Shown piece after piece: positions 5,068 to 36,481 of a DNA stretch of 42,460 nucleotides. Within the stretch, counting starts at the first letter, position 1, and each line of letters starts with the position of its first letter. Made by a program: the position numbers and the translations under genes. The notes beneath the pieces were generated by a model that was given only the letters and a program-made list of their open reading frames with translations, ran no database searches and was not told where the DNA came from. The DNA comes from Clostridia bacterium (GTDB lineage Bacteria; Bacillota; Clostridia; RUG12999): assembly GCA_022801925.1 (NCBI GenBank), contig JAAWTG010000021.1, positions 1-42,460 of the forward strand, in the 5' to 3' direction.

Positions 5068-5187
5068 ATGAACAAACTTAAAGAACTCACTATGCAGCTA
5101 ATCGCAGCGCAGGAGCGTGGGGATAGGCGGGAATGGAAGAAACTAGCTGGACAGATTGCGGAGATGGAAGGAGAGAGTGACAAATGA
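5068..5187 (+). CDS. small hypothetical phage protein
   Basis: This 39-residue reading frame (MNKLKELTMQ... to SDK) follows GAAAGGAG and ends in an ATGA overlap with the next gene, so translational coupling is likely. It is helical and charged, with no recognisable domain. Too short to classify; the start and overlap support it being real. Confidence 0.55.
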   Translation: MNKLKELTMQLIAAQERGDRREWKKLAGQIAEMEGESDK

Positions 5188-5609
5188 TAACCATAAAAAA
5201 GCCGGAGGATATGGAAAAATATTATGACAAGGAAACAAATACATATCGGTTTGTGGATAAAAATGGATTTCGTGAGGATGTAACGATAAAGTTCAATATT
5301 AATATTGATAGTAATATCTATGCGTGGAACATTAACGCGTGGAACATTAACGCGTGGAACATTAACGCGGGGAACATTAACGCGTGGAACATTAACGCGG
5401 TGGACATTAACGCGTGGAACATTAACGCGGGGGACATTACCGCAGGGGACATTAACGCGGGGGACATTAACGCAGACCATATATTATATTATGCCGTATG
5501 CATAGCGTATGAGTCTTTTAAATGTAAGTCAGTCAAAGGTCGCCGCATAAACGCCGTGCATATGTGTCTGGACGGAGATATTGAGTATAAAGGAGGAGAC
5601 GGGGAATGA
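5184..5609 (+). CDS. tandem 5-residue repeat protein
   Basis: This 141-residue protein has a charged N-terminal part (1-45), ten 5-residue repeats (about 47-96) of the type A-W/G-N/D-I-N, and a C-terminal domain with YYAVC, a KGRR motif and CLDG. The regular Ile every five residues with Asn/Asp before it suggests a pentapeptide-like right-handed beta-helix, although the small residue is not in the classical position. Relatives with different repeat numbers are common in clostridial prophages as far as I recall; no function is established. It overlaps both neighbours by ATGA-type junctions. Confidence 0.7.
   Translation: MITIKKPEDMEKYYDKETNTYRFVDKNGFREDVTIKFNINIDSNIYAWNINAWNINAWNINAGNINAWNINAVDINAWNINAGDITAGDINAGDINADHILYYAVCIAYESFKCKSVKGRRINAVHMCLDGDIEYKGGDGE
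5322..5471 (+). repeat. ten 15-bp tandem repeats in coding sequence
   Basis: The unit GCGTGGAACATTAAC is repeated ten times with a few substitutions (GGG for TGG, GAC for AAC). All units are multiples of three bases, so gain or loss of units keeps the frame and only changes protein length. Confidence 0.9.
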
Positions 5610-5788
5610 AACGAAAACGCGGTAAAAAGAAAAACATAGTTCCAATGTGTGAAAATTGTGAAAATTTTATTCCGATTGGCGAGGGAGACCATATTTGCAT
5701 AGCTGGAATGCCTATAATTGTAGTTGAGGAATATACACCAACGGAAGACTATTTTTGGTGTAAAGGAAAGAGGTTTGAAGCATTATGA
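5606..5788 (+). CDS. small Cys-rich phage protein
   Basis: This 60-residue protein has a basic N-terminus (KRKRGKKK) and the cysteines CENC, C at about 31 and C at about 52, compatible with a small zinc-binding fold. It overlaps the preceding and following genes by four bases, so it is part of a translationally coupled run. No function is assigned. Confidence 0.6.
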   Translation: MKRKRGKKKNIVPMCENCENFIPIGEGDHICIAGMPIIVVEEYTPTEDYFWCKGKRFEAL

Positions 5789-6312
5789 GCAAGAAATATG
5801 AATTTACCGGAGAGACAAAGGATATTTATGGTGTAACAGTACATCAAATCAGGGCATTGCGAGATTTCGGAGATGTAAAAGCGGGAGATATCGGCGGCTG
5901 GATAGAGAGCGAGGAAAACCTATCGCATAACGGAACGGCATGGGTATACGGCAATGGTGTGGTATGCGACAGTGGTAGGGTATGCAACAATGGTGTGGTA
6001 TGCGACAGTGGTAGGGTATGCAACAATGGTGTGGTATGCGACAGTGGTAGGGTATACGGCAATGGTGTGGTATGCGGAAAAATGCAAGTTGAGAATAACA
6101 GACAAATCCTTATGGTCGATTATATCGGCAGCCGTTACGGGAGCATTACATTTGCAAATGACACAGATGGCAATATAGCGGTAGCGTGCGGCTGTTTTTA
6201 CGGTACGATAGGCGAATTTGCAGCTAAGGTAAAAGAGAAACACAGAAGCAGCATATATGCAAAGGAATATGAAGCAGCGATAGAGCTTGCGAAAATACAT
6301 ATCATGAGGTGA
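5785..6312 (+). CDS. hexapeptide-like beta-helix repeat protein
   Basis: This 175-residue protein has an N-terminal segment with RALRDFGDVKAGDIGGWIE and NLS, a pattern seen in clostridial phage proteins that lead into hexapeptide repeats. About seven hexads alternate NGVVCD and SGRVCN (about 56-98), consistent with a left-handed beta-helix. A mixed C-terminal domain (about 100-175) with Cys-Gly-Cys follows. The abundant cysteines at the same hexad position would line up as a ladder on one face. Function unknown. It neighbours another repeat gene. Confidence 0.65.
   Translation: MSKKYEFTGETKDIYGVTVHQIRALRDFGDVKAGDIGGWIESEENLSHNGTAWVYGNGVVCDSGRVCNNGVVCDSGRVCNNGVVCDSGRVYGNGVVCGKMQVENNRQILMVDYIGSRYGSITFANDTDGNIAVACGCFYGTIGEFAAKVKEKHRSSIYAKEYEAAIELAKIHIMR
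5953..6077 (+). repeat. 36-bp tandem repeats, three and a half copies, in coding sequence
   Basis: The 36-bp unit encodes two hexads (NGVVCD, SGRVCN). Units run 5953-5988, 5989-6024 and 6025-6060, then a partial unit to 6077. The near-identity of the copies indicates recent expansion, and the length is a multiple of three. Confidence 0.9.
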
Positions 6313-8347: not shown

Positions 8348-8531
8348 TTTTGTTTTGGAGGTCTACAGAACAATACAGGGAAGTAGTCGCCCTATTGTCA
8401 GACTGGACAATGAAGCCTATATGAGACTCAACGAAGCGAAAACAGCAACGGGATTGCCGGTAACGCAAATTGCGTCCGAAGCTATAAAATACGCACTGGA
8501 TCGCATGGAAATAAAAATTATCAATAGATGA
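8337..8531 (+). CDS. small ribbon-helix-helix-like protein
   Basis: This 64-residue protein resembles CopG-type DNA-binding proteins: a beta strand with PIVRLDNEAYMRLNEAKTAT, then a helix with ITQIASEAIKYAL-like spacing. The start ATG-GCG is set by AAAGGAG; an in-frame GTG at 8328 overlaps that ribosome site and is less likely. It lies directly before the Sak4-like ATPase gene and could regulate the block, but that is speculation. Confidence 0.5.
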   Translation: MADSFVLEVYRTIQGSSRPIVRLDNEAYMRLNEAKTATGLPVTQIASEAIKYALDRMEIKIINR

Positions 8532-8545
8532 AGGAGGAGAGCAGT

Positions 8546-9181
8546 ATGGGAATACCTGTTTTAATTTTAGGAGAGAGCGGCAGCGGGAAAAGTACCAGCT
8601 TGAGAAATTTTGAGCCTGATGAAGTTGGAGTTTTTAACGTGGCGGGCAAACCACTACCATTCCGAAAACAATTAAAAACGGTGGATACAAATGATTATAA
8701 CAAAATCTATGCGGCGTTACAGAATGGGTCTTTAAAAACTTACGTTATAGATGACAGCCAGTATCTCATGGCGTTTGAAATGTTTGCGCGCGCAAAAGAA
8801 ACCGGATTTGCGAAATTTACAGATATTGCAGTAAATTTTCACAGCCTGTTGCAATTTATTATTAACGGATTGTCGAAAGATACTATTGTGTATTTTATGC
8901 AGCACACAGACCAAACCGATACGGGTAAAATTAAGGCAAAAACATGCGGGAAAATGATAGACAATCAGTTGACTTTGGAAGGGCTTTTTAGCATTGTACT
9001 GATGGCGCAAACGGACGGCAAACGACATTATTTTGTAACGCAGTCGGACGGACATACAACCTGTAAAAGTCCCATGGATATGTTCGAGCCGGAGATAGAT
9101 AATGACCTAAAATTCGTGGACAAAACAATTCGCGAATACTGGAATTTGAATAAAAATAAAAAAGGAGAAGATGAACAATGA
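8546..9181 (+). CDS. Sak4-like RecA-fold ATPase
   Basis: This 211-residue AAA/RecA-type ATPase has a Walker A at the very start (GESGSGKST, residues 9-17) and a Walker B ending TYVIDD (about 67-72). It also has a QHTDQT region and a late TDGKRHYFVTQSDG strand pair. The short P-loop-first layout matches phage Sak4 proteins, which support single-strand annealing recombination with an SSB encoded next door. AAGGAGGA precedes the chosen ATG. The following SSB-like and nuclease genes make a recombination module. A general phage NTP-binding role is the alternative. Confidence 0.7.
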   Translation: MGIPVLILGESGSGKSTSLRNFEPDEVGVFNVAGKPLPFRKQLKTVDTNDYNKIYAALQNGSLKTYVIDDSQYLMAFEMFARAKETGFAKFTDIAVNFHSLLQFIINGLSKDTIVYFMQHTDQTDTGKIKAKTCGKMIDNQLTLEGLFSIVLMAQTDGKRHYFVTQSDGHTTCKSPMDMFEPEIDNDLKFVDKTIREYWNLNKNKKGEDEQ

Positions 9182-9747
9182 AAAAATTTGAAGGATACGA
9201 AAAAGCAAGAGTAATGACAGACAGAGAGCGGCTGCCGATTGGCGGGTACGTCGTGAAAATTTTGGACGCGGAAGAACTTACATATAGCTGGGGAAGCGTA
9301 TTGGCAATTAGTATTGATATTGAAGAAGGGGAATATAAGGGATATTATCAACAAGACTATGACCTGCAAAATCAAGAGGATAAAAAATGGAAAGGTGTAT
9401 ATCGCTTAAGCATACCAAAAGAAGACGGTAGTGAGATGGACGAATGGAGTGCAAATATCTTTAAGACAGCAATTGCCGCAATAGAAGATAGTAATACCGG
9501 ATATCATTGGGACTGGGACGAAAAGAAATTAAAAGGAAAGGTCGTTGGAGCGTTATTCCGCAATAAAGAATATGAATTAAACGGAGTGAGAGGATTTTTC
9601 ACGGAATGTAGTGGTTTCCGTCCGGTGGAGATTATTAAAAGCGGTAAATTCAAGGTGCCAAAAGATAAGCTATTGAAGAAAAAAGAGGAGCCGGTATCCG
9701 GATTTACTCCTGCGACAATGTTTGACGATGACGACTGCCCATTCTGA
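9178..9747 (+). CDS. DUF669-like single-stranded DNA-binding protein
   Basis: This 189-residue protein resembles phage DUF669 proteins, which occupy the SSB position: GGYVVKILDAEE, then a beta-rich OB-like core with GYYQQDYD, and GKVVGALFRNKEY. It ends in DDDDCPF, a close copy of the acidic SSB tail tip (DDDIPF) that docks replication and recombination partners. It overlaps the Sak4-like gene by four bases, as expected for an annealing pair. Confidence 0.7.
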   Translation: MKKFEGYEKARVMTDRERLPIGGYVVKILDAEELTYSWGSVLAISIDIEEGEYKGYYQQDYDLQNQEDKKWKGVYRLSIPKEDGSEMDEWSANIFKTAIAAIEDSNTGYHWDWDEKKLKGKVVGALFRNKEYELNGVRGFFTECSGFRPVEIIKSGKFKVPKDKLLKKKEEPVSGFTPATMFDDDDCPF

Positions 9748-9763
9748 GATATGGGGTGATGTC

Positions 9764-10300
9764 ATGAAATATACCAATTTTGAAATACGGCGTATGCTAA
9801 ACAGCATGATTATTTTAGTAGATACCAGAGAGCAAGACACACCGACATATCGTAAGCGTTTGGAGGGGTTCGGCTGCCCCTCCGAACGGTATAAATTAGA
9901 TTATGGAGACTATAGTGCAGCATATACGGACGAAAACGGCGAAAAGGTTTATATCAATAAAATTGTTGCAATCGAGCGAAAAATGAATTTAGATGAATTG
10001 TGCGGTTGCTTTACGAAAGGACGACAACGTTTTGAACGGGAATTCATAAGAGCGAAAAATGACGGTGCAAGAATCCATTTGCTGGTAGAGGGTGGAAACT
10101 ATGAAAAGATGTTTGGCGGAATGTATAGAAGTCTTTTAACGCCGGACGCGTTGACTGCGAGTTATCTTGCATGGTCGGAACGGTACAATCTGCAACTGCA
10201 TTTTTGCCGCGAAGAAACTACGCCAAAACTAATCTATAAAATACTCTATTACGCACTAAAAAATCATCTTGAAAATTTAGAAGGTGATATGATTGCGTAG
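9764..10300 (+). CDS. ERCC4-domain nuclease
   Basis: This 178-residue protein has the XPF/ERCC4 nuclease signature: VDTREQ (about 19-24), LDYGDYS, and the catalytic-type VAIERKMNLDEL, matching the GDxnERKxxxD core. RQRFEREF and LLVEG follow. Phage members are structure-specific nucleases in replication or recombination. The start with GGGGTGAT is preferred over the in-frame ATG 14 codons upstream, which lies inside the preceding gene. Confidence 0.75.
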   Translation: MKYTNFEIRRMLNSMIILVDTREQDTPTYRKRLEGFGCPSERYKLDYGDYSAAYTDENGEKVYINKIVAIERKMNLDELCGCFTKGRQRFEREFIRAKNDGARIHLLVEGGNYEKMFGGMYRSLLTPDALTASYLAWSERYNLQLHFCREETTPKLIYKILYYALKNHLENLEGDMIA

Positions 10301-10829
10301 GGAATACATAGATACAATTACAGACCAAATCCGCATGGAAGATATATTCGGCAAGTATGGATATAAACCAAATAAGGCAGGATTTATTTGTTGTCCGCTG
10401 CACGGAGAGAGAACCCCATCTTTAAAGCCGTATCAAGACGGGAAAAAGTGGAAATGTTTTGGCTGCGGTGAGGGTGGCAGTGTGATTGATTTTGTGATAA
10501 AGCTATATAACCTCGGATTGCAGGAAGCAATTACAAAAATCAATTATGATTTTGCACTGGGATTGCCACTAGGACAACGCTTGTCGGTTCGCCAGCAGCA
10601 AAAAATCCGACAGAAAGAGCGCGAACGGAAGAAACGGCAAGAAGCCGAAAGAATGGCGGCAGAAGAAAAGGAACGCCATTATTGGAAAGTTTGGGATGAA
10701 TGGATTAGACTGGATCAGAACCGCATAAAATACGCACCTAAAACCGAAGATGAAGAATGGCATCCGTTATACGCTGAAGCACTCATGAAATTACCATATC
10801 AAAATTATTTAATTGACTGTCTGGAATGA
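10293..10829 (+). CDS. CHC2 zinc-finger primase-like protein
   Basis: This 178-residue protein begins with the DnaG-type CHC2 zinc ribbon: CCPLHGERTPSL (about 30-41), KWKCFGCGEGGSVIDFV (about 50-66). After the finger comes a long charged helix (QKERERKKRQEAERM), and no TOPRIM domain is present. It could be the zinc-binding part of a split primase working with the DUF927 protein that follows. The start is TTG at 10293, set by AAGGTGA; it overlaps the nuclease gene by 8 bases. Confidence 0.7.
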   Translation: MRREYIDTITDQIRMEDIFGKYGYKPNKAGFICCPLHGERTPSLKPYQDGKKWKCFGCGEGGSVIDFVIKLYNLGLQEAITKINYDFALGLPLGQRLSVRQQQKIRQKERERKKRQEAERMAAEEKERHYWKVWDEWIRLDQNRIKYAPKTEDEEWHPLYAEALMKLPYQNYLIDCLE

Positions 10830-10843
10830 AAGGGGGATAGGAT

Positions 10844-12679
10844 GTGAATGAAATAGTAATACCGGAATACACCAAAAGAGATTTTTTAGCAACAACAGCC
10901 CCCTTTGAATGGTTGTACCAGTATCGGAATAACAAGCTGCAAATGAAACAATTAATTGAGCGAATGAGAGAACGCGCCGGAGCGGTTGGCGTTAAAAATT
11001 TTGTTAGTCTGTATAAAGCATATTTGGAAATGATGTCATCTAAAGACGGCATCATAGCGGATAACACAACAGATTTCGAGGGTCAGGAACTAGAACTTGA
11101 CTGCGGGTCCTGGTATTGTGATGATTTGGGCATTACAGGCACCGATAAAATGGGGTTTGAAATTGTCGCCTGTAATCATCCAATCATGCCAGTGCAGCGT
11201 TTAGTCAATATTGATTCCGGCATTGAAAAATTAAAGTTGGCATACCGGAAAAATAAACAGTGGCGCTACATCATCTCTGACAAAAAGACGCTTGCAAGCA
11301 ACAATTCCATCTTGCAGCTTGCGGATTACGGAGTAGCAGTGAACAGTGAAAATGCAAAATATCTTGTGCGATATTTAACGGATATTGAACATCTGAACTA
11401 CGACAAAATTGAAGAACTAAATTCTGTAGGTCGGCTGGGCTGGATTGATAATTATGGATTTAGTCCATATGTAGAGGATTTAGTCTTTGACGGAGACCTA
11501 ACATTTAAACATTTTTTTGAAAGCGTTGGAGAAAAGGGTAGCTACGAAAAATGGTTAGATCTTGCGAAAGAGATACGCTGCGGAGGCATATGCGCTCGTT
11601 TAATGCTGGTTGCTAGTTTTGCCAGTGTCCTTGTTAAGCCGTGCTGCGCACTGCCATTTTTTGTGCATTTATGGGGCGGCACAGAGACAGGTAAGACTGT
11701 TGGTTTGATGTTAGCAGCAAGTGTGTGGGCAAACCCCAAAATGGGCGAGTACATACATACTTTTAACAGCACATCAGTAGCGCAGGAGTTGTCCGCAACA
11801 TTTGTTAACTCTCTTCCGTTGATATTGGATGAACTGCAAATTATTAAAGACCGGAAAGACTTTGACAACATCATTTACATGCTGAGTGAGGGAGTGGGAC
11901 GCAATCGCGGACAAAAAACGGGAGGACTGCAAAAAGTTGGTAGTTGGCAGAACTGCATATTAACAACGGGAGAAATGCCAATCAATAGCGGCGCCAGTGG
12001 TGGTGGGGCGGTCAACCGTATTATAGAGGTAGATTGCAAAGATATACGGTTATTTGACGACCCTGTCAACGTTGCAGATACACTTAAACATAATTATGGT
12101 TTTGCTGGCAGAATGTTTGTGGGAAAGCTGATGGAACAAGATAACATGGACTATGCAATACAAGTCCAAAGAGACTTTTATCGTGAATTATCCATGGGCG
12201 AAACAACAGAAAAACAGGCAATGGCAGCCAGTGTAATTTTAGCGGCTGATAAATTGGCAAATGAATGGATTTTTAAGGATGGAAACACCTTGTCTGTAAA
12301 AGATATTGAGCCATATTTGTCTACAAAACGGGATGTATCAGTCAATGAGCGTGCATTGGAATTCCTGTATGAGTACATTTCCATAAATCAACACCGATTC
12401 CGAAATGATGAATACAGCGAGGTATGGGGCGCGATGGATGACGGATACACGTACATCATAAAAGCGCAGTTTGACAAAATCATGAAGGATGAAGGATATA
12501 ACCCTACAGCGTTTTTGAGTTGGGCGAAGCAGCGTGATTATATTACATGTGCACCAAATCGAACAACAAAGTCAAAACGTGTTCAGCAAAAAACTTGTCA
12601 TTGCGTATGGCTGAAAAACGTTATAAATACTGAGGATATGACGGATGAGGAGCGAGAATCGTTTCCATTTGACCTGTAA
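10844..12679 (+). CDS. DUF927-type replicative helicase/primase-associated ATPase
   Basis: This 611-residue protein has a DUF927 core with the Walker A GGTETGKT (about 278-285) and a Walker B LILDEL (about 325-330). Phage DUF927 proteins follow primase zinc fingers and are taken as replicative helicases. The start is GTG, set by AGGGGGA; the ATG overlapping it is out of frame. Its stop is followed at once by a dense iteron array, so the protein or a partner may act there. Origin binding is inferred from position only. Confidence 0.75.
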   Translation: MNEIVIPEYTKRDFLATTAPFEWLYQYRNNKLQMKQLIERMRERAGAVGVKNFVSLYKAYLEMMSSKDGIIADNTTDFEGQELELDCGSWYCDDLGITGTDKMGFEIVACNHPIMPVQRLVNIDSGIEKLKLAYRKNKQWRYIISDKKTLASNNSILQLADYGVAVNSENAKYLVRYLTDIEHLNYDKIEELNSVGRLGWIDNYGFSPYVEDLVFDGDLTFKHFFESVGEKGSYEKWLDLAKEIRCGGICARLMLVASFASVLVKPCCALPFFVHLWGGTETGKTVGLMLAASVWANPKMGEYIHTFNSTSVAQELSATFVNSLPLILDELQIIKDRKDFDNIIYMLSEGVGRNRGQKTGGLQKVGSWQNCILTTGEMPINSGASGGGAVNRIIEVDCKDIRLFDDPVNVADTLKHNYGFAGRMFVGKLMEQDNMDYAIQVQRDFYRELSMGETTEKQAMAASVILAADKLANEWIFKDGNTLSVKDIEPYLSTKRDVSVNERALEFLYEYISINQHRFRNDEYSEVWGAMDDGYTYIIKAQFDKIMKDEGYNPTAFLSWAKQRDYITCAPNRTTKSKRVQQKTCHCVWLKNVINTEDMTDEERESFPFDL

Positions 12680-12684
12680 TCGGC

Positions 12685-12876
12685 GTAACCACTGTAACCA
12701 GTGTAACCACTGAAAACATAAGCTTTTATATAACTAAACATATATACTCTAAAAGTTATATAGTGTATTTGTGCTATAAGGAGTATTGCTAAAAAGTGGT
12801 TACAGTGGTTACATGCCCATGATACGCGGCTTTCAGGTGGTTACGTGACTGGTTGCACCATGGTTGCAGTGGTTAC
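12685..12876. other. putative replication origin with opposed iterons
   Basis: Three 9-bp iterons (GTAACCACT, GTAACCAGT, GTAACCACT) are packed head to tail at 12685-12711. The reverse form AGTGGTTAC occurs at 12795-12803, 12804-12812 and 12868-12876, with shorter or degenerate copies at 12837-12844, 12848-12856 and 12859-12867. Between the two sets lies a strongly AT-rich stretch (12713-12794) with its own inverted repeat TATATAACT/AGTTATATA. Opposed iterons around an AT-rich unwinding segment, right after the helicase gene, are what a phage origin looks like. Function is inferred. Confidence 0.7.
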
Positions 12877-12895
12877 GTTCCATAGGAGGATAAAG

Positions 12896-13138
12896 ATGGA
12901 TATAGTAAAAAATGTAAAACAACTTATCTCACAATCTATAAAACAAATTCACCAAAATTCAGACCCCGCCCCTATATTATATCGGTTTGAACAGAATTTG
13001 CAAGAGCTAAAAAGCAAATTGCCGGAAAATCAACGTGAGGCATTAGAGGATTATGCAAGGAAAGTGTGGCTTCTGTACGACGAATTTTTAACAAGCGTAG
13101 AAAATGAAGATGAAAGAATGCTAGAGGTGCTGATGTGA
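12896..13138 (+). CDS. small helical phage protein
   Basis: This 80-residue helical protein (VKNVKQLISQ, PILYRFEQNLQELKSKLPE, WLLYDEFLTS) has no recognised family. TAGGAGG sets the ATG; the open frame extends upstream through the iterons, which are not considered coding. Its final ATG-TGA overlaps the GTG of the next reading frame. Confidence 0.55.
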   Translation: MDIVKNVKQLISQSIKQIHQNSDPAPILYRFEQNLQELKSKLPENQREALEDYARKVWLLYDEFLTSVENEDERMLEVLM

Positions 13139-29320: not shown

Positions 29321-32300
29321 ATGGGACATTTCTTAGAGAGGGTAGAGCGCGGAACAGTACCGGATAAATTAACGCAAAATCCGAGAGAGCGTAATGTACG
29401 TACTATGCAAGATATTGTTGCGGACAACGAGCGGGAAGGCGTTAAAATGCCGTCTGTCCATGGCGAGATTGCAGGTAAAAGCGGAAAGAAAACAACACCG
29501 CAGAAACAGCAATCAAAAAATATTTTTGCACTCTCAAACAATCCGGTTAAAGCGGTAAAAGGAATAGAAAACAGCATTGCGCTATATGAAAATTTACGCA
29601 ATAAGTATGGACAGTCACGAATAAAGAAAAATGACGCTAAAAACGAAAAAGGTAAAGCTGATTCATCTAATATGGATTTAAGTGCATGGAACGTATGGAA
29701 AAACGGAATACGGCAACTATTCAGCAATCCGTGGTATGTCAATTCTAATGAAAATCTTGGGGTAGCGAGAAACCTTGCAAAGTCAGCAATCGACCAATCC
29801 ATTGACAGCTCGGTGAAACGGGAATATACCTCCCGACCAGGCGAAATAATAGAAACAAGATGGAGCGGTAAAACATATGGCGTAGACCGCAATAACAACG
29901 GCAAACTGGACACATTTGAAGTGGAATCAGGGTCAAATCCGTTTAATAATTTTTATTATACCTTAGCAAAACCTGCGGCAGTGGCAGCAAAAGACTCTTT
30001 GATAGCCGGCGGTCACGCTTTCAATAAAGGGGTCTATTCTCTTGCTGCTGGAGTGGGAGATTATTTATATAATTTAGGAAGAGCGGGAAAAGCTGCCGTT
30101 GAACAAAAGAATCCTTTTGCCAAAGTAGAATTAAAAATGCCATTGGGCGATAGTGCACCAATACAAAACATTAAAAACAATGCAAACACAGCGGCAGAAC
30201 GCGCAAACCAATCAGCAGGATATTTTGGAACAGTTGGAGAATTTACAAATCAGATTACGCAATCTGCTGCACAAATGGCACCTTCATTAGCAGCTGCTTA
30301 TTTAACAGGTGGACAGTCTGCTTCTGCTGATTTATCACGTGCAGGTATGACGGCGTTTGAAAAGGCAACACAATTGCTGAAACTGCCCAAACATATGATA
30401 CCTACTTTTTTATCTCAAGCGGGTCAATCGTATAATGACGCACTGGAACAGACAGGAGACCCGACAAAGGCATTGGAATATGGCATTATAAATGGATATT
30501 TGAACGCTTTAATTGAGCAGGGCGGCGTACAAGAAGGAGTTGCCACAGGTTCGTTAAAAGATACAGCAAAACAAAGCGCATGGGACTTTGTGAAGGATAA
30601 CATGCTTGAAGAAGGTGTTGAAGAAATTACACAGAACGTAACGGAAGGTGCATTACGGAAAATGATGGTAGACCCATCCGCGCCGTTATTCAGTGTGCAG
30701 GACGAAAATGCTGTCATAAATCCGAAACGGGATTTATACGCCGGAGCAGTCGGCGCGGTGGCTGGCGGATTGTTCGGTGGCGCGAATAAAGCGATGAGCA
30801 ATCTTGCAAATGCTACAAATCGCTCTACAAGCAGCGCACAAAACAGATTAGCGGAAGATGTTGTAACTACGCCGGAAATAGACACTAATACACGAACAAA
30901 TATAAATTTGCAAGAAGATGTTTCAACACCACCGCAAAACCAGTCCCATATACAAGCAGAGACACAAACATCTGTAGCAATAAAAGAAGGAAATTTGATA
31001 ACTAGTTATACAGCAGACGGTCAACCGATTAATACAAAATATGCTGTTGTGGAATCTAGTGACATAATTGCTTCTCATGATGAGTCAGGAAATGTCAATC
31101 CTGCATATCCGCAGGAATTACAACCGCGTGACCGTGAACGTACCGCGTCACAACTACAAGTACAAAAGATTGCGAATAATCTACAACCGGCAATGTTGGG
31201 TGAAAATACGCTGGTGTCTGCTGGTGCACCCGTTGTCGGAAGCGATATGGTAGTAGAAAGCGGAAATGGAAGAACAGCGGCGTTACGTCAGGCATATAAA
31301 GGAGAAAAAGGAGCGTCGTACAAACAGTGGCTTGTAGAGAATGCAGAACAATTCGGAATTCGTCCGGCAGATGTTGAAAATATGAATCAGCCTGTTTTAG
31401 TACGGGTACGGGAAGGGGCAGAAAATAGAAGTGCATTTACACAGATGGCAAATGACAGTGGCGTTGCAAGCATGGGAGCGACAGAGACGGCGGCTCAGGA
31501 CGCGGGGAGATTAACACCGGAAATGCTGTCGTCATTTCAGCCATCTGAGGACGGAACAATCAATAATAGCGGTAATACCGGATTTATCGCACAGTTTGTT
31601 GAAAATGTGATTCCGCAGTCGCAGCGAGGTGAATATATTACAGCAGATGGGAAATTATCCCAAGCGGGTGTAAACCGCGTCAAAAACGCTTTGTTCTATA
31701 AAGCATACCAAGATTCGCAGCTTATGAGTCTGCTTGCAGAAGAAACAGACAGCAATATCCGTAATGTGACAAATGCCATGATAAAAGCTGCACCGGAATT
31801 CGTGAAATTGCAGTCACGCATTGATTCCGGTGATTTGTCAAACTCCAATATACCTAGTGATATAGCTGCCGTTGCAAAAACCATGAAAGATATTAAAGAT
31901 GGTAATATACGTGGAATCAGCACGGCAGAAGAATTGCTTGCACAAACAGCGTTGGACAATAACGGTTTAACGGATTCACAGCGTGAAATTCTATCCGCTA
32001 TTGCTACGCCGGACGAATCAGGAAAAGTCATGATGAAAAGTTCTGCGAAAATGGGAAGATTCTTTACAGAGGTAGCAAGAACATTAAATGCGCAAGAAGG
32101 AGCCGCACAAACCACATTAGTTGATATGCCTGAACTAAGCACCGCAGACGTTATACAGCAGGCAAAAAATAATGCTGAATATGATGAACGGCTGGAAACA
32201 CAGACCATTGACCGTGCAGCACGTGCACAGGAAGGAGCTGCACAGACAACACAGCAGCAAATGCAAGAAAAGAAGCAGCGTGTAGAGAAGGTCGGAAAGG

Positions 32301-35300
32301 CGATTGGTAGGAAGGTTGAATGGTATAACGACCAAAGCGACCCAGTTCATGCAAACCAAAACGGATACTATAAAGACGGTGTCATTCACATTAATGAAAA
32401 CGCTCAGAATCCATATATGACGGTATTGGGACACGAAAGTTTTCATTCATTGAACGCAAAAGACAGGGCGGCAATCATAAATTTTGTGAAAGAGAATACC
32501 AATGTGGAGAGTGCGGACTTTCAGCGATACCGGGACGAACGGCGGCGGGCATACACACAGGAATACCAGAAGCAAAACCGTTTGTTTTCGGATTGGGATT
32601 TCTGGGAGGAATACGCAGCGGACAACATGGAGAACTTCTTTCAGGATGAAACCTTTGTAAATAAACTGGCGCAGAAAAATAAAGGTACGACACAACGGCT
32701 TTTGGACACATTACGCAGTATATGGGAGAAAATCAAAGGTGCATTTTCACTGAAACGCGACCCTAGCAACGTGAATGCGTGGATGAAATCCAAAGGCAGG
32801 TTTATACCAAAGCATTATTCTATTGGTATGAATGAAGCAGGTTTGTCCTCCGGTATGACGGACGCTCAATTCAAAAAAATAGAACGCATGTTTGAAAAGG
32901 CATTGGGAAATGAACTGGATAGCGGGGTAGATGGGAAAACAAGGTATAGTGTTGAGACATTGCCGGACGGAAGAAAATATGTGCAAGCAGATAGGCAGGT
33001 AATTACAGGAAATGACCCTGGGCAATGGGCAAAGCAGGTAGAGCAGTACATCAATAATGAAATACGGCAAGGAAAAGATGTCACTGTATACGGTGCGGAC
33101 GGTGACCCGCTGACATTAACAGGTAAGACCGCATGGAAAGGCGCATATCGTAATCAGAATTTAACTTCTGACAGACAATATGCAACTAAATTAAGAGCGG
33201 AAACACATATTGATGAACTTGCTGAGGTGTCAAGACGATTTGGAAAACCTGTGCCAGATAAAAACAATAAACACGGAAAATTTGCCGATAAAGGCTGGCA
33301 GTACAGAACAGCTTACTTTATGGACAATGACGGAAGATATTATCAGATGCGTATCTCAACCGCAATGAATGACGCTGGGAACATAGTATATAACATAGGT
33401 GAAATAAAAGAAAGAAGCAATCCAGTTTACGGCTCTTCCACAAATAGCGGCGCTCTGAATAGGACTGCTTCTTCTGATACAAACACTATAACACAGAATC
33501 AAGATTCTGTCAATAGTAGTATATCAGATTCCGCACAAAATGATACAGAAAAACCATCTATGAAAACGTCCAAATTCTATGACAGCACACAAAATACAGA
33601 CGCGCTGAATACGCAGACAAAGGAAGCGATTGCAGAGCAAGCGGAAGCATTTGAATATGAAGGAATCAGCAATAAAGAGACGATTCAAAAAGCCTTGAAG
33701 GAATTCCAAAATAATCCACTGAAAACCGCGTCACATTTTCTGACAACATCTCCCGAACGGGTGAGAACGAAAGATATTGCGACAGGTTTCGTTTTGCTGC
33801 AAAAATATCAGGAAGTGGGAGATTTTAATTCCGCTGTTGAGGTTGCAAAAAAACTACGCGAGATTGGGACACAAAAAGGACAGGAGGTACAAGCGTTTTC
33901 CATTCTGAACCGTTTAACGCCGGAAGGAATGCTATATTATGCACAGGGAGAACTGGACAGCGCATTGGAGATTATCGGTAAAAAAAAGGGGCAAGAATGG
34001 CTGGACAAGAATCGGGATAAATTTAAACTGACCGATGATGAAGCAAAGTTCATTGTAGATTCCATGAAACGCGTACCGAATATTCAAGATGAACGACAAC
34101 GAAAAGTCATTATCGGCGAAGTGCAAAAACTGGTTCAGGAGAAAATGCCGAAGAAGTTATCGGAGACTGTTGCAGATGATTTGCGGGCATGGCAGCGGGT
34201 TTCTATGCTGCTCAACCCTAAAACGATTGTGACGCGAAATGCCGGTGCCAATGCGATTATAGCGCCGGTTCATTTGGCAAGTGAAGCAATCGGCAGCGGT
34301 CTTGATAAGCTGGTTTCAAAGGCAACCGGAGTTCGCACTACAACACTGCCTAATGCTAAAAATTTAGGAAAAGGTTTTGTAAAAGGCGGGTACGACAGTT
34401 TTGACGATTTCAGGCGCGGCATTAATACACGCGATATACAAAATGACCGGTTCAATATCAGTTCCGGTCAAGCATTTCGCGGTAAGAATCCGATATCAAA
34501 AGCTATGCGGGGACTTGACCGCGTTACATCTTATTTGTTGGATACCGGTGACCGTCCGTTTTTTGAAGCATATTTTTTGGACAGTATTAATGGACAAATG
34601 AAGGCAAATAAGGTGGACAAACCGACTGCCGACATGATAGATATTGCCACGCAGTCCGCACTGGAAAAAACATGGCAGGACGATAATGCAGTTACTAATT
34701 CCATGAAGAAGATAAAACAAGGACTGAACTTGGGAATGAAATTCGGTCTTGGGGATATCGTTGTACCGTTTATCAAAACACCTGCAAACTTGGGAAAAGC
34801 ATTGGTCGATTTCAGCCCTGTAGGTTTTACAAAAGGGTTGGTTGTAGACGGAACAAAGTTAATTCAGGCACAAAAACACGGGACGCTTACACCACAAATA
34901 CAGAGAAAATTTGTAAACAATGTTTCTAAAGGAATTGTTGGAATGCTGATGTATGCCGGTGCGTATGCATTAGCTTCTTCCGGTTTCTTGACCGGCAGCG
35001 ATAAAGAGGACGACAAAGACGCAAGAGCGTTCAAACGAAATGTGCTTGGTGAGAATCAATATGCGTTCAAACTAGGTAACAAAACCTATACATATGATTG
35101 GGCGCAGCCGATTGGCGGCGTTATGGCAATCAGCGCGGATATTGCAAATAAAAATGTAAACGGAGAAAGCGCAATCAGCGTTATCACAAATGCGTTGGCG
35201 GCAGGTGGAAACACATTGTTTGAGCAATCTGTTTTAACAGGTGTGGCAGAATTTTTCAAAAATGCAGATGATGGACTTGTCGCGGCGTTTCAAGGGGCAG

Positions 35301-36481
35301 CCGGAGATATTCCGGCACAGGCGGTTCCAACGCTGCTCAAGCAGATTTCGGACTACATAGACCCGGTAAAACGCAGCACGTATGACCCTGACAAATTGCA
35401 GCAGTCCTTGAACACAGGTATTGCCAAAATTCCAGGATTGGAAAAGAAATTGCAGCCGTCCGTAGATGTATTGGGGCGTGACGTAAAACGATACGGCGGA
35501 GAAAATAATTTGTTCAACGTATTTTTAAATCCGGCAAATGTCAATGTAGCAAACCCAACGCCGGAATTGCAAGAAGTGTGGAAGGTGTTTGAAGATACGC
35601 AGGATACGGGCGTTTTCCCCAAAGTAGTAGGAAATTCTATTACAAATAAAGGTATGAAATACGTTTTGTCTGCCGAGGAAAAAACAGATTATCAACGGAC
35701 ACTTGGAGAGGAAACAAACAAAGGTTTGAAGGAGTTGATGTCAAGTAAAGGCTATAAATCCGCGAGTGCGGCAGATAAAGCAGAATATATCAAGACCATT
35801 ATTGCGAATAGTGACAGCAAAGCAAGAAAAGAACTGCTCAAGAAAAAAGGTGTGACAGACACAATAGAAGATTTTAAAAATGATATTTCCAACAAAAAGA
35901 AATACTATTCCATATGGGACGATGTGGAACCGAGTGATGTCGGGAAACAGGCAAAGGGGAAATCAATCGGACAGGTATCATCCGTAGTGAATGCGCTGTC
36001 AAAGAAAAGCAAGCTAACGCCGAATGTCATATCTGGCATCACCAAGTACATAGATGAAATAGAGAAGCGCAGCCCTAATGCGGTGGACAAAGAATTGTAT
36101 CGGTTAGGAGTGTTAAAGGAAGACTACACCGACACAGAAGATGGGGATATGGACGTAACAACCGGATATATGTCTATGTTTACATACACTGATGATGGGC
36201 AGAAATATTCCATTAATGTGAATTATTCCGATATGCCGCAGATTATGCGTGAAATAGAAAAGGAAACCTACAAGCAAATGGAACGGCTGATAAACAATCA
36301 GTATACTTCTAAGAAAAAGAAAACCTATGGACAGCGGTATACTTACAAAAATGCGAGTGCAGACCAAAAAATCAAATGGGTCAACGAAGTGCGGACTGAT
36401 GTGAAGAATGAGTTTAAAAGTAAGTATTCACGAAAATATGGCGTGACGAAGGTTCCAAATAAATTAAAGAAGGTGAAATAA
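29321..36481 (+). CDS. 2386-residue polyvalent virion protein
   Basis: This giant protein combines several modules. Residues about 565-860 resemble the DdrB-like ParB-fold domain (VVESGNGRTAALRQAY near 645-660). Residues about 1000-1150 are a zinc metallopeptidase with HESFH at 1038-1042, and about 1205-1370 a compact beta-rich domain (DGRYYQMRIS). After about 1600 comes a long mostly alpha region with a hydrophobic segment near 1871-1893. Such domain collections match the polyvalent proteins ejected with phage or conjugative DNA (DdrB, peptidase, LPD38-like parts). AAAGGAG precedes the ATG. Its stop overlaps the next start. Confidence 0.75.
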   Translation: MGHFLERVERGTVPDKLTQNPRERNVRTMQDIVADNEREGVKMPSVHGEIAGKSGKKTTPQKQQSKNIFALSNNPVKAVKGIENSIALYENLRNKYGQSRIKKNDAKNEKGKADSSNMDLSAWNVWKNGIRQLFSNPWYVNSNENLGVARNLAKSAIDQSIDSSVKREYTSRPGEIIETRWSGKTYGVDRNNNGKLDTFEVESGSNPFNNFYYTLAKPAAVAAKDSLIAGGHAFNKGVYSLAAGVGDYLYNLGRAGKAAVEQKNPFAKVELKMPLGDSAPIQNIKNNANTAAERANQSAGYFGTVGEFTNQITQSAAQMAPSLAAAYLTGGQSASADLSRAGMTAFEKATQLLKLPKHMIPTFLSQAGQSYNDALEQTGDPTKALEYGIINGYLNALIEQGGVQEGVATGSLKDTAKQSAWDFVKDNMLEEGVEEITQNVTEGALRKMMVDPSAPLFSVQDENAVINPKRDLYAGAVGAVAGGLFGGANKAMSNLANATNRSTSSAQNRLAEDVVTTPEIDTNTRTNINLQEDVSTPPQNQSHIQAETQTSVAIKEGNLITSYTADGQPINTKYAVVESSDIIASHDESGNVNPAYPQELQPRDRERTASQLQVQKIANNLQPAMLGENTLVSAGAPVVGSDMVVESGNGRTAALRQAYKGEKGASYKQWLVENAEQFGIRPADVENMNQPVLVRVREGAENRSAFTQMANDSGVASMGATETAAQDAGRLTPEMLSSFQPSEDGTINNSGNTGFIAQFVENVIPQSQRGEYITADGKLSQAGVNRVKNALFYKAYQDSQLMSLLAEETDSNIRNVTNAMIKAAPEFVKLQSRIDSGDLSNSNIPSDIAAVAKTMKDIKDGNIRGISTAEELLAQTALDNNGLTDSQREILSAIATPDESGKVMMKSSAKMGRFFTEVARTLNAQEGAAQTTLVDMPELSTADVIQQAKNNAEYDERLETQTIDRAARAQEGAAQTTQQQMQEKKQRVEKVGKAIGRKVEWYNDQSDPVHANQNGYYKDGVIHINENAQNPYMTVLGHESFHSLNAKDRAAIINFVKENTNVESADFQRYRDERRRAYTQEYQKQNRLFSDWDFWEEYAADNMENFFQDETFVNKLAQKNKGTTQRLLDTLRSIWEKIKGAFSLKRDPSNVNAWMKSKGRFIPKHYSIGMNEAGLSSGMTDAQFKKIERMFEKALGNELDSGVDGKTRYSVETLPDGRKYVQADRQVITGNDPGQWAKQVEQYINNEIRQGKDVTVYGADGDPLTLTGKTAWKGAYRNQNLTSDRQYATKLRAETHIDELAEVSRRFGKPVPDKNNKHGKFADKGWQYRTAYFMDNDGRYYQMRISTAMNDAGNIVYNIGEIKERSNPVYGSSTNSGALNRTASSDTNTITQNQDSVNSSISDSAQNDTEKPSMKTSKFYDSTQNTDALNTQTKEAIAEQAEAFEYEGISNKETIQKALKEFQNNPLKTASHFLTTSPERVRTKDIATGFVLLQKYQEVGDFNSAVEVAKKLREIGTQKGQEVQAFSILNRLTPEGMLYYAQGELDSALEIIGKKKGQEWLDKNRDKFKLTDDEAKFIVDSMKRVPNIQDERQRKVIIGEVQKLVQEKMPKKLSETVADDLRAWQRVSMLLNPKTIVTRNAGANAIIAPVHLASEAIGSGLDKLVSKATGVRTTTLPNAKNLGKGFVKGGYDSFDDFRRGINTRDIQNDRFNISSGQAFRGKNPISKAMRGLDRVTSYLLDTGDRPFFEAYFLDSINGQMKANKVDKPTADMIDIATQSALEKTWQDDNAVTNSMKKIKQGLNLGMKFGLGDIVVPFIKTPANLGKALVDFSPVGFTKGLVVDGTKLIQAQKHGTLTPQIQRKFVNNVSKGIVGMLMYAGAYALASSGFLTGSDKEDDKDARAFKRNVLGENQYAFKLGNKTYTYDWAQPIGGVMAISADIANKNVNGESAISVITNALAAGGNTLFEQSVLTGVAEFFKNADDGLVAAFQGAAGDIPAQAVPTLLKQISDYIDPVKRSTYDPDKLQQSLNTGIAKIPGLEKKLQPSVDVLGRDVKRYGGENNLFNVFLNPANVNVANPTPELQEVWKVFEDTQDTGVFPKVVGNSITNKGMKYVLSAEEKTDYQRTLGEETNKGLKELMSSKGYKSASAADKAEYIKTIIANSDSKARKELLKKKGVTDTIEDFKNDISNKKKYYSIWDDVEPSDVGKQAKGKSIGQVSSVVNALSKKSKLTPNVISGITKYIDEIEKRSPNAVDKELYRLGVLKEDYTDTEDGDMDVTTGYMSMFTYTDDGQKYSINVNYSDMPQIMREIEKETYKQMERLINNQYTSKKKKTYGQRYTYKNASADQKIKWVNEVRTDVKNEFKSKYSRKYGVTKVPNKLKKVK

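Follow-up and report, generated by a model that had tools for sequence, protein, structure and literature searches.

The closest described counterpart of the locus reported here is the Rep-ori module of SaPI and PICI elements. According to PMC7581432, the C-terminal domain of SaPI Rep recognizes iterons located immediately 3' of the rep gene, and PMC6092414 reports that plasmid replication is driven by the Pri-Rep-ori segments of SaPIbov1, SaPI1, and EfCIV583 and that in the origins of gram-negative PICIs an AT-rich region always lies between two sets of iterons. The primases of SaPIbov1 and SaPI5 belong to the AEP family (PMC7581432). Cch2 can be likened by description, because its C-terminal domain binds iterons 3' of its own gene, although it comes from a different helicase family and three AAGTG repeats are present in its putative origin. 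The alpha protein of the satellite P4, likewise compared by description, is both initiator and helicase and works at a cognate origin of its own; however, its initiating helicase and primase are fused in one protein (PMC7145576).

The window analysed here, i.e., the whole stretch of 42,460 nucleotides from contig JAAWTG010000021.1 of a Clostridia bacterium, is a prophage; its genes include those for an integrase, a P22-type portal, capsid, and terminase. The intergenic segment at 12680–12895 is very probably its replication origin, a putative theta-type origin of the SaPI/PICI Rep-ori kind. As in SaPI and PICI modules, a homologous DUF927 (MCM-like) Rep helicase with a C-terminal winged helix is encoded, an origin-like array lies directly 3' of the helicase gene, and an AT-rich region separates two facing iteron sets. 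In contrast to these elements, the window encodes portal, capsid, and terminase and is a complete prophage rather than a satellite; in addition, its primase-like gene specifies a short CHC2 zinc ribbon instead of an AEP-type protein, and its iteron word differs. The placement of a SaPI-type putative origin inside a complete prophage is based on the fold matches of the helicase together with the SaPI/PICI literature on Rep-ori. A preliminary description of this DNA had proposed a candidate phage origin, a reading now strengthened by this precedent and by the arrays downstream of most helicase relatives, and had noted that no established origin with this iteron word was known; among the established origins found, the latter holds for the exact word, yet the architecture has a precedent that the description left unnamed.

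Prophage setting and layout of the array

The genes described here upstream of the array are all on the + strand, and encode a Sak4-like annealing ATPase (8528–9181; phrog_2872), a probable single-strand DNA binding protein, SSB (9178–9747; phrog_378), an ERCC4-type nuclease (9764–10300; domain and PHROG matches), and a short CHC2 zinc-ribbon (DnaG N-terminal domain) protein (10293–10829; domain match). The CHC2 protein is only 178 aa long and a TOPRIM domain was not detected in it; in THSA-485A, the DUF927 helicase is annotated with such a domain fused to it. Next to the array is the gene of the DUF927 MCM-like helicase itself (10844–12679; 611 aa), a predicted self-loading initiator identified by Pfam matches to DUF927 and HTH_56, a PHROG primase/helicase match, and the folds of 8tch and 5dgk. 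The HTH_56 winged helix, residues 499–586 (12338–12601), is the predicted iteron reader based on Pfam and the partial Mantel test described below, and the H3-wing loop and β-wing, residues 569–590 (12548–12613), contain the covarying residues 569, 571, 572, 576, and 585.

An AlphaFold model of the helicase (mean pLDDT 88.7) matches SaPIbov1 Rep (8tch) with Z 34.2 over 455 residues at an rmsd of 5.3 and SCCmec Cch (5dgk), which has the same DUF927 helicase fold and a related C-terminal domain, with Z 30.5; the next fold matches are MCM proteins at Z of about 13. The relation to SaPIbov1 Rep and Cch is also seen by sequence, and a Foldseek comparison with viral predicted structures returned mainly other DUF927 or helicase/primase proteins. 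Elsewhere in the prophage, the ORF at 5184–5609 contains approximately nine pentapeptide-like units in tandem, each of five residues and of the WNINA/GNINA type, the ORF at 5785–6312 contains repeated NGVVCDSGRVCN-like units, and the product of 29321–36481, a locus beside the P22-type portal genes, is 2386 aa long and includes a ddrB-like ParB domain.

The putative origin comprises the whole 216-bp gap between the helicase stop at 12679 and the next ATG at 12896, an architecture kept in relatives. The array was reported to follow the DUF927 helicase gene directly, and indeed begins 5 bp beyond the stop codon and is located before both the ribosome-binding site (12884–12889) and the ATG of the downstream gene. 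Three head-to-tail iterons of 9 bp, L1 GTAACCACT (12685–12693), L2 GTAACCAGT with one mismatch (12694–12702), and the left-proximal L3 GTAACCACT (12703–12711), are read on the + strand. They face six copies on the − strand, namely the exact right-proximal R1 (12795–12803), the exact R2 (12804–12812), R3 with one mismatch (12836–12844), the degenerate copies GCAACCAGT with two mismatches (12848–12856) and GCAACCATG with three (12859–12867), and an exact distal iteron (12868–12876). This arrangement of three forward 9-mers against three exact and three weaker inverse copies agrees with the preliminary description. It exceeds chance, as a 6-mer found seven times on both strands of the gap was matched by 0/2000 dinucleotide shuffles. 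When the host genome was searched with up to two mismatches, the five best matches to GTAACCACTGTAACC were all inside the array, and no other cluster of this word was seen in that genome. GC skew exhibits no clear switch at the array, which counts against an origin, and no intrinsic terminator was found in 12680–12895.

The iteron groups are separated by an AT-rich core of 83 bp (12712–12794), the probable melting region, with an AT content of about 76% vs. 59.5% in the surrounding 2 kb. The earlier claim of an AT-rich core of about 80 bp with its own inverted repeat stands, and the 9-bp repeat TATATAACT/AGTTATATA (12727–12735/12754–12762) is real but not significant alone, since it is reached by 21/300 shuffles. 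Beyond that claim, the core and the spacer among the right iterons hold elements conserved in relatives: a left core element GCTTTTATATAACTAAA (12722–12738, + strand), counterpart of the family motif C(C/T)TATATAG.GA; a right core element (12771–12783) that reads CTCCTTATAGCAC on the − strand and corresponds to the family motif CTTACGCGCGAGA/CCTATATAGG; and a spacer element ATGCCCATGATACGCGGCTTTCA (12813–12835), with proximal and distal right iterons on either side, which corresponds to spacer words conserved in relatives and is similar to AACCCGCATGATAAGCGGCTTTCAG of THSA-485A.

Conservation downstream of related helicases

A locus search with the single window protein yielded no relative, and an alignment was used as the query instead; in total, 181 helicase loci were assembled, drawn from phage records and whole genomes as well as from viral and bacterial contigs. 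At least two copies of an exact 7-mer on each strand, within 400 bp past the helicase stop, were found in 147/179 relatives, compared with 16/895 shuffles and 1/537 upstream coding segments subjected to the same opposed 7-mer test. A strict template of paired iterons, a core of 50–135 bp, and paired inverse iterons fits 126/180 loci with a median core of 89 bp at 70% AT; the 54/180 relatives that miss it were counted against the origin reading. Several of the settings of the template, the anchoring, and the identity cut-offs were chosen while looking at the data. The preliminary description had named an absence of iterons near homologous helicase genes as the outcome that would speak against an origin; instead, opposed arrays are located directly downstream of most relatives. 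Facing arrays occur in the named phages phiRg507T2 (of R. gnavus), Roseburia Jekyll, THSA-485A, and FP_Epona. The SaPI-like PT1028 follows the general plan as well: straight after its DUF927 gene, GTTCCC iterons face each other over about 85 bp of AT-rich core. For several distant HTH_56 proteins beside recombinase-like genes, no array was seen by eye, and a single left-type iteron after the spacer, common in relatives, is absent from the window; both observations weigh against the origin reading.

The architecture is conserved among relatives, whereas the iteron word is not. Anchoring yielded 58 different 7-mers, and because some of these are not anchored on GT, the number of real iteron words is about 50; conservation is confined to the GT at the start (about 1.2 bits each), whereas positions 3, 4, and 7 are nearly information-free. 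The iteron 15-mer alone was considered as a diagnostic and rejected: its matches in viral contigs are often on the same strand and not shown to be origins, and 8/32 examined 15-mer loci encode this helicase family, and therefore the word alone is not diagnostic. Opposed GTAACC arrays are also present in the viral contigs L030, L056, L067, L122, and L126, where no relative of the DUF927 helicase was found in the DNA covered; in these, a different initiator possibly uses a word of this kind.

Elements inside the array are common across the family independent of the iteron word. A or T tracts adjoin the iterons in family cores, CTATATA is present in 53/108 cores (4.6 in shuffles), CTTACGCGCGAGA-like elements occupy the right arm, and the mean inverted repeat measures 7.4 vs. 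6.3 in shuffles. The spacer word AAATCAA occurs in 21/106 (2.3 expected), and the spacers of staphylococcal PT1028 and of clostridial phages have the ATCAATGGTTT word in common. A hairpin in the spacer of the right iterons was also considered and rejected: the mean folding z of −0.38 is weaker than the −1.00 of core controls, and inverted repeats are at the level of shuffles (5-mers, 0.25 vs. 0.23). What the spacers conserve is words and not base pairing. In L302, L308, L195, and their relatives, the words of the spacer that parts the proximal from the distal right iterons run in one or the other orientation depending on the locus, without pairing potential.

Statistical coupling of the iteron to the helicase wing

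The DNA-binding part of the helicase was approached by a partial Mantel test, in which pairwise iteron difference was compared with the difference of each helicase domain while the whole protein was held constant. Only HTH_56 was significant among the domains (0.174, p = 0.001, p-values being approximate because the loci are related), and the motor gave −0.124. At the level of single residues, Arg at position 585 accompanies A at iteron position 4 in 37/45 cases and Glu accompanies G in 21/22, while Arg569 occurs with G in 22/25. Excess mutual information is highest for residues 585, 572, 569, 576, and 571, falling from 2.22 to 1.27 against a background of 0.34 (sd 0.31, max 1.43); these top residues, which are located in the H3-wing loop and the wing, were picked by covariation itself. 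Per-column mutual information alone is noisy, with high z for conserved motor residues too, and weight was therefore put on the partial Mantel test, matched pairs, and a distant-neighbour test. The covariation is partly phylogenetic, a concern that these three tests lessen. The window helicase is atypical at two of the covarying residues, with His585 and Ala569.

A selection of residues independent of this covariation is offered by TcpK of plasmid pCW3, which is seen bound to oriT in 5vfx and whose β-wing binds tandem 9-nt boxes at the conjugation origin, with R71, R75, N82, and Y84 as DNA-contact or mutated residues (PMC6137059). The C-terminal domain of the helicase resembles TcpK (5vfy) in fold, with Z 11.7 over 88 residues, whereas the profile alignment is weak (E 0.33) and sequence alone does not establish homology; moreover, TcpK is a free-standing dimer of the conjugation relaxosome and is not fused to a helicase. 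Its four residues align with 572, 576, 583, and 585, respectively, after a 5-residue numbering offset inferred from the residue names in the paper. In the distant-neighbour test, helicases less than 65% identical over residues 101–480 were compared at iteron positions 3–7. The nearest neighbour by residues 572, 576, 583, and 585 has 0.58 of these positions in common, vs. 0.40 for random C-terminal residues (60 draws; sd 0.04, max 0.52). Recognition-helix residues give 0.38, and all distant pairs give 0.33, the chance level. Statistically, iteron specificity thus appears to be carried by the wing and the H3-wing loop and hardly by the recognition helix, and the covariation supports the predicted binding of iterons by the C-terminal domain of the Rep-type helicase.

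Probable function of the array and proposed exchange of the wing

If the iterons were operators through which the helicase or another phage protein regulates the downstream gene, and not an origin, it would be fitting that the array abuts the ribosome-binding site of that gene and that one promoter-like match is found in the core. This match is at chance (one found, 1.0 expected), however, and an operator does not call for facing arrays, an AT-rich core whose length hardly varies, or conserved inner elements. In addition, the iteron word changes together with the DNA-binding domain of the helicase itself, and for the homologous SaPI system replicon function has been shown by experiment (PMC6092414). 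Regulation in place of replication is hence quite unlikely, although autoregulation by the helicase may be a side role of the array. Recombination, packaging, or partition could also be served by the array, with helicase adjacency reflecting module order only: repeats are used in many such sites, and TcpK, with a wHTH similar to the C-terminus of the helicase, recognizes 9-mers in tandem at an origin of conjugation (PMC6137059). Against such a role, which we regard as most improbable, stand the position of the array directly after the helicase gene across diverse phages and bacterial contigs and the tracking of the word with the C-terminal domain of the helicase and not with its other domains.

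The helicase might, alternatively, be purely replicative, with a host initiator such as DnaA opening the origin, and DnaA is indeed used at many phage and plasmid origins. With TTWTNCACA as the only consensus tried, no box is present in 12680–12895, the nearest being about 3.2 kb away, and the nine matches in the window are at chance level (mean 6.9). Furthermore, PMC7581432 states that SaPI Rep and Cch2 use C-terminal domains to recognize their origins, which are cognate or putative, and there is very little to recommend an opening by DnaA.

For an origin of the Rep-ori kind, the following mechanism is proposed. Copies of the helicase (10844–12679) would bind the 9-bp iterons via the β-wing of the C-terminal HTH_56 domain; because the iterons to the left of the AT-rich core point towards those to its right, and vice versa, two helicase rings are proposed to assemble head to head. 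The core would then melt, the rings would load and unwind outward, and the forks would be completed by the phage CHC2 protein, the SSB, and host polymerase. With an origin of this kind, SaPI-type replicons would no longer be confined to staphylococcal islands but would include phages and prophages of many Clostridia, and a sequence rule for locating such origins would be available. The choice of an origin by a self-loading MCM-like initiator, and the evolution of that choice, would likewise become a testable question.

It appears reasonably likely that DUF927 initiators of clostridial phages read their iterons via a TcpK-like β-wing, with a partly readable code of residues and bases, and that wing and origin are exchanged as a cassette. 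If this is true, related phages re-code their origins while the motor is kept, and the location of the origin directly behind the C-terminal coding region may be explained by the ability of both to move together. Close relatives such as L302 and L298, which are 95% identical over residues 101–498 and have different iteron words, lend themselves to an exchange of the residues and bases named above. Since near-identical motors can carry different wings with different iterons, the wing and the adjacent origin look like one exchangeable specificity cassette, and the identity profiles suggest co-transfer of both by recombination. Among motor-matched pairs (identity 0.68–0.92), same-word and different-word pairs are about equal up to approximately residue 480, beyond which they separate by 0.10–0.16 to the C-terminus. 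The DNA identity of L302 and L298 falls from 0.8–0.9 to 0.5–0.6 about 200–300 bp before the stop and is low through the origin, whereas that of the same-word pair L298/L299 stays at 0.8–0.9 across the stop and over the initial 200 bp beyond it.
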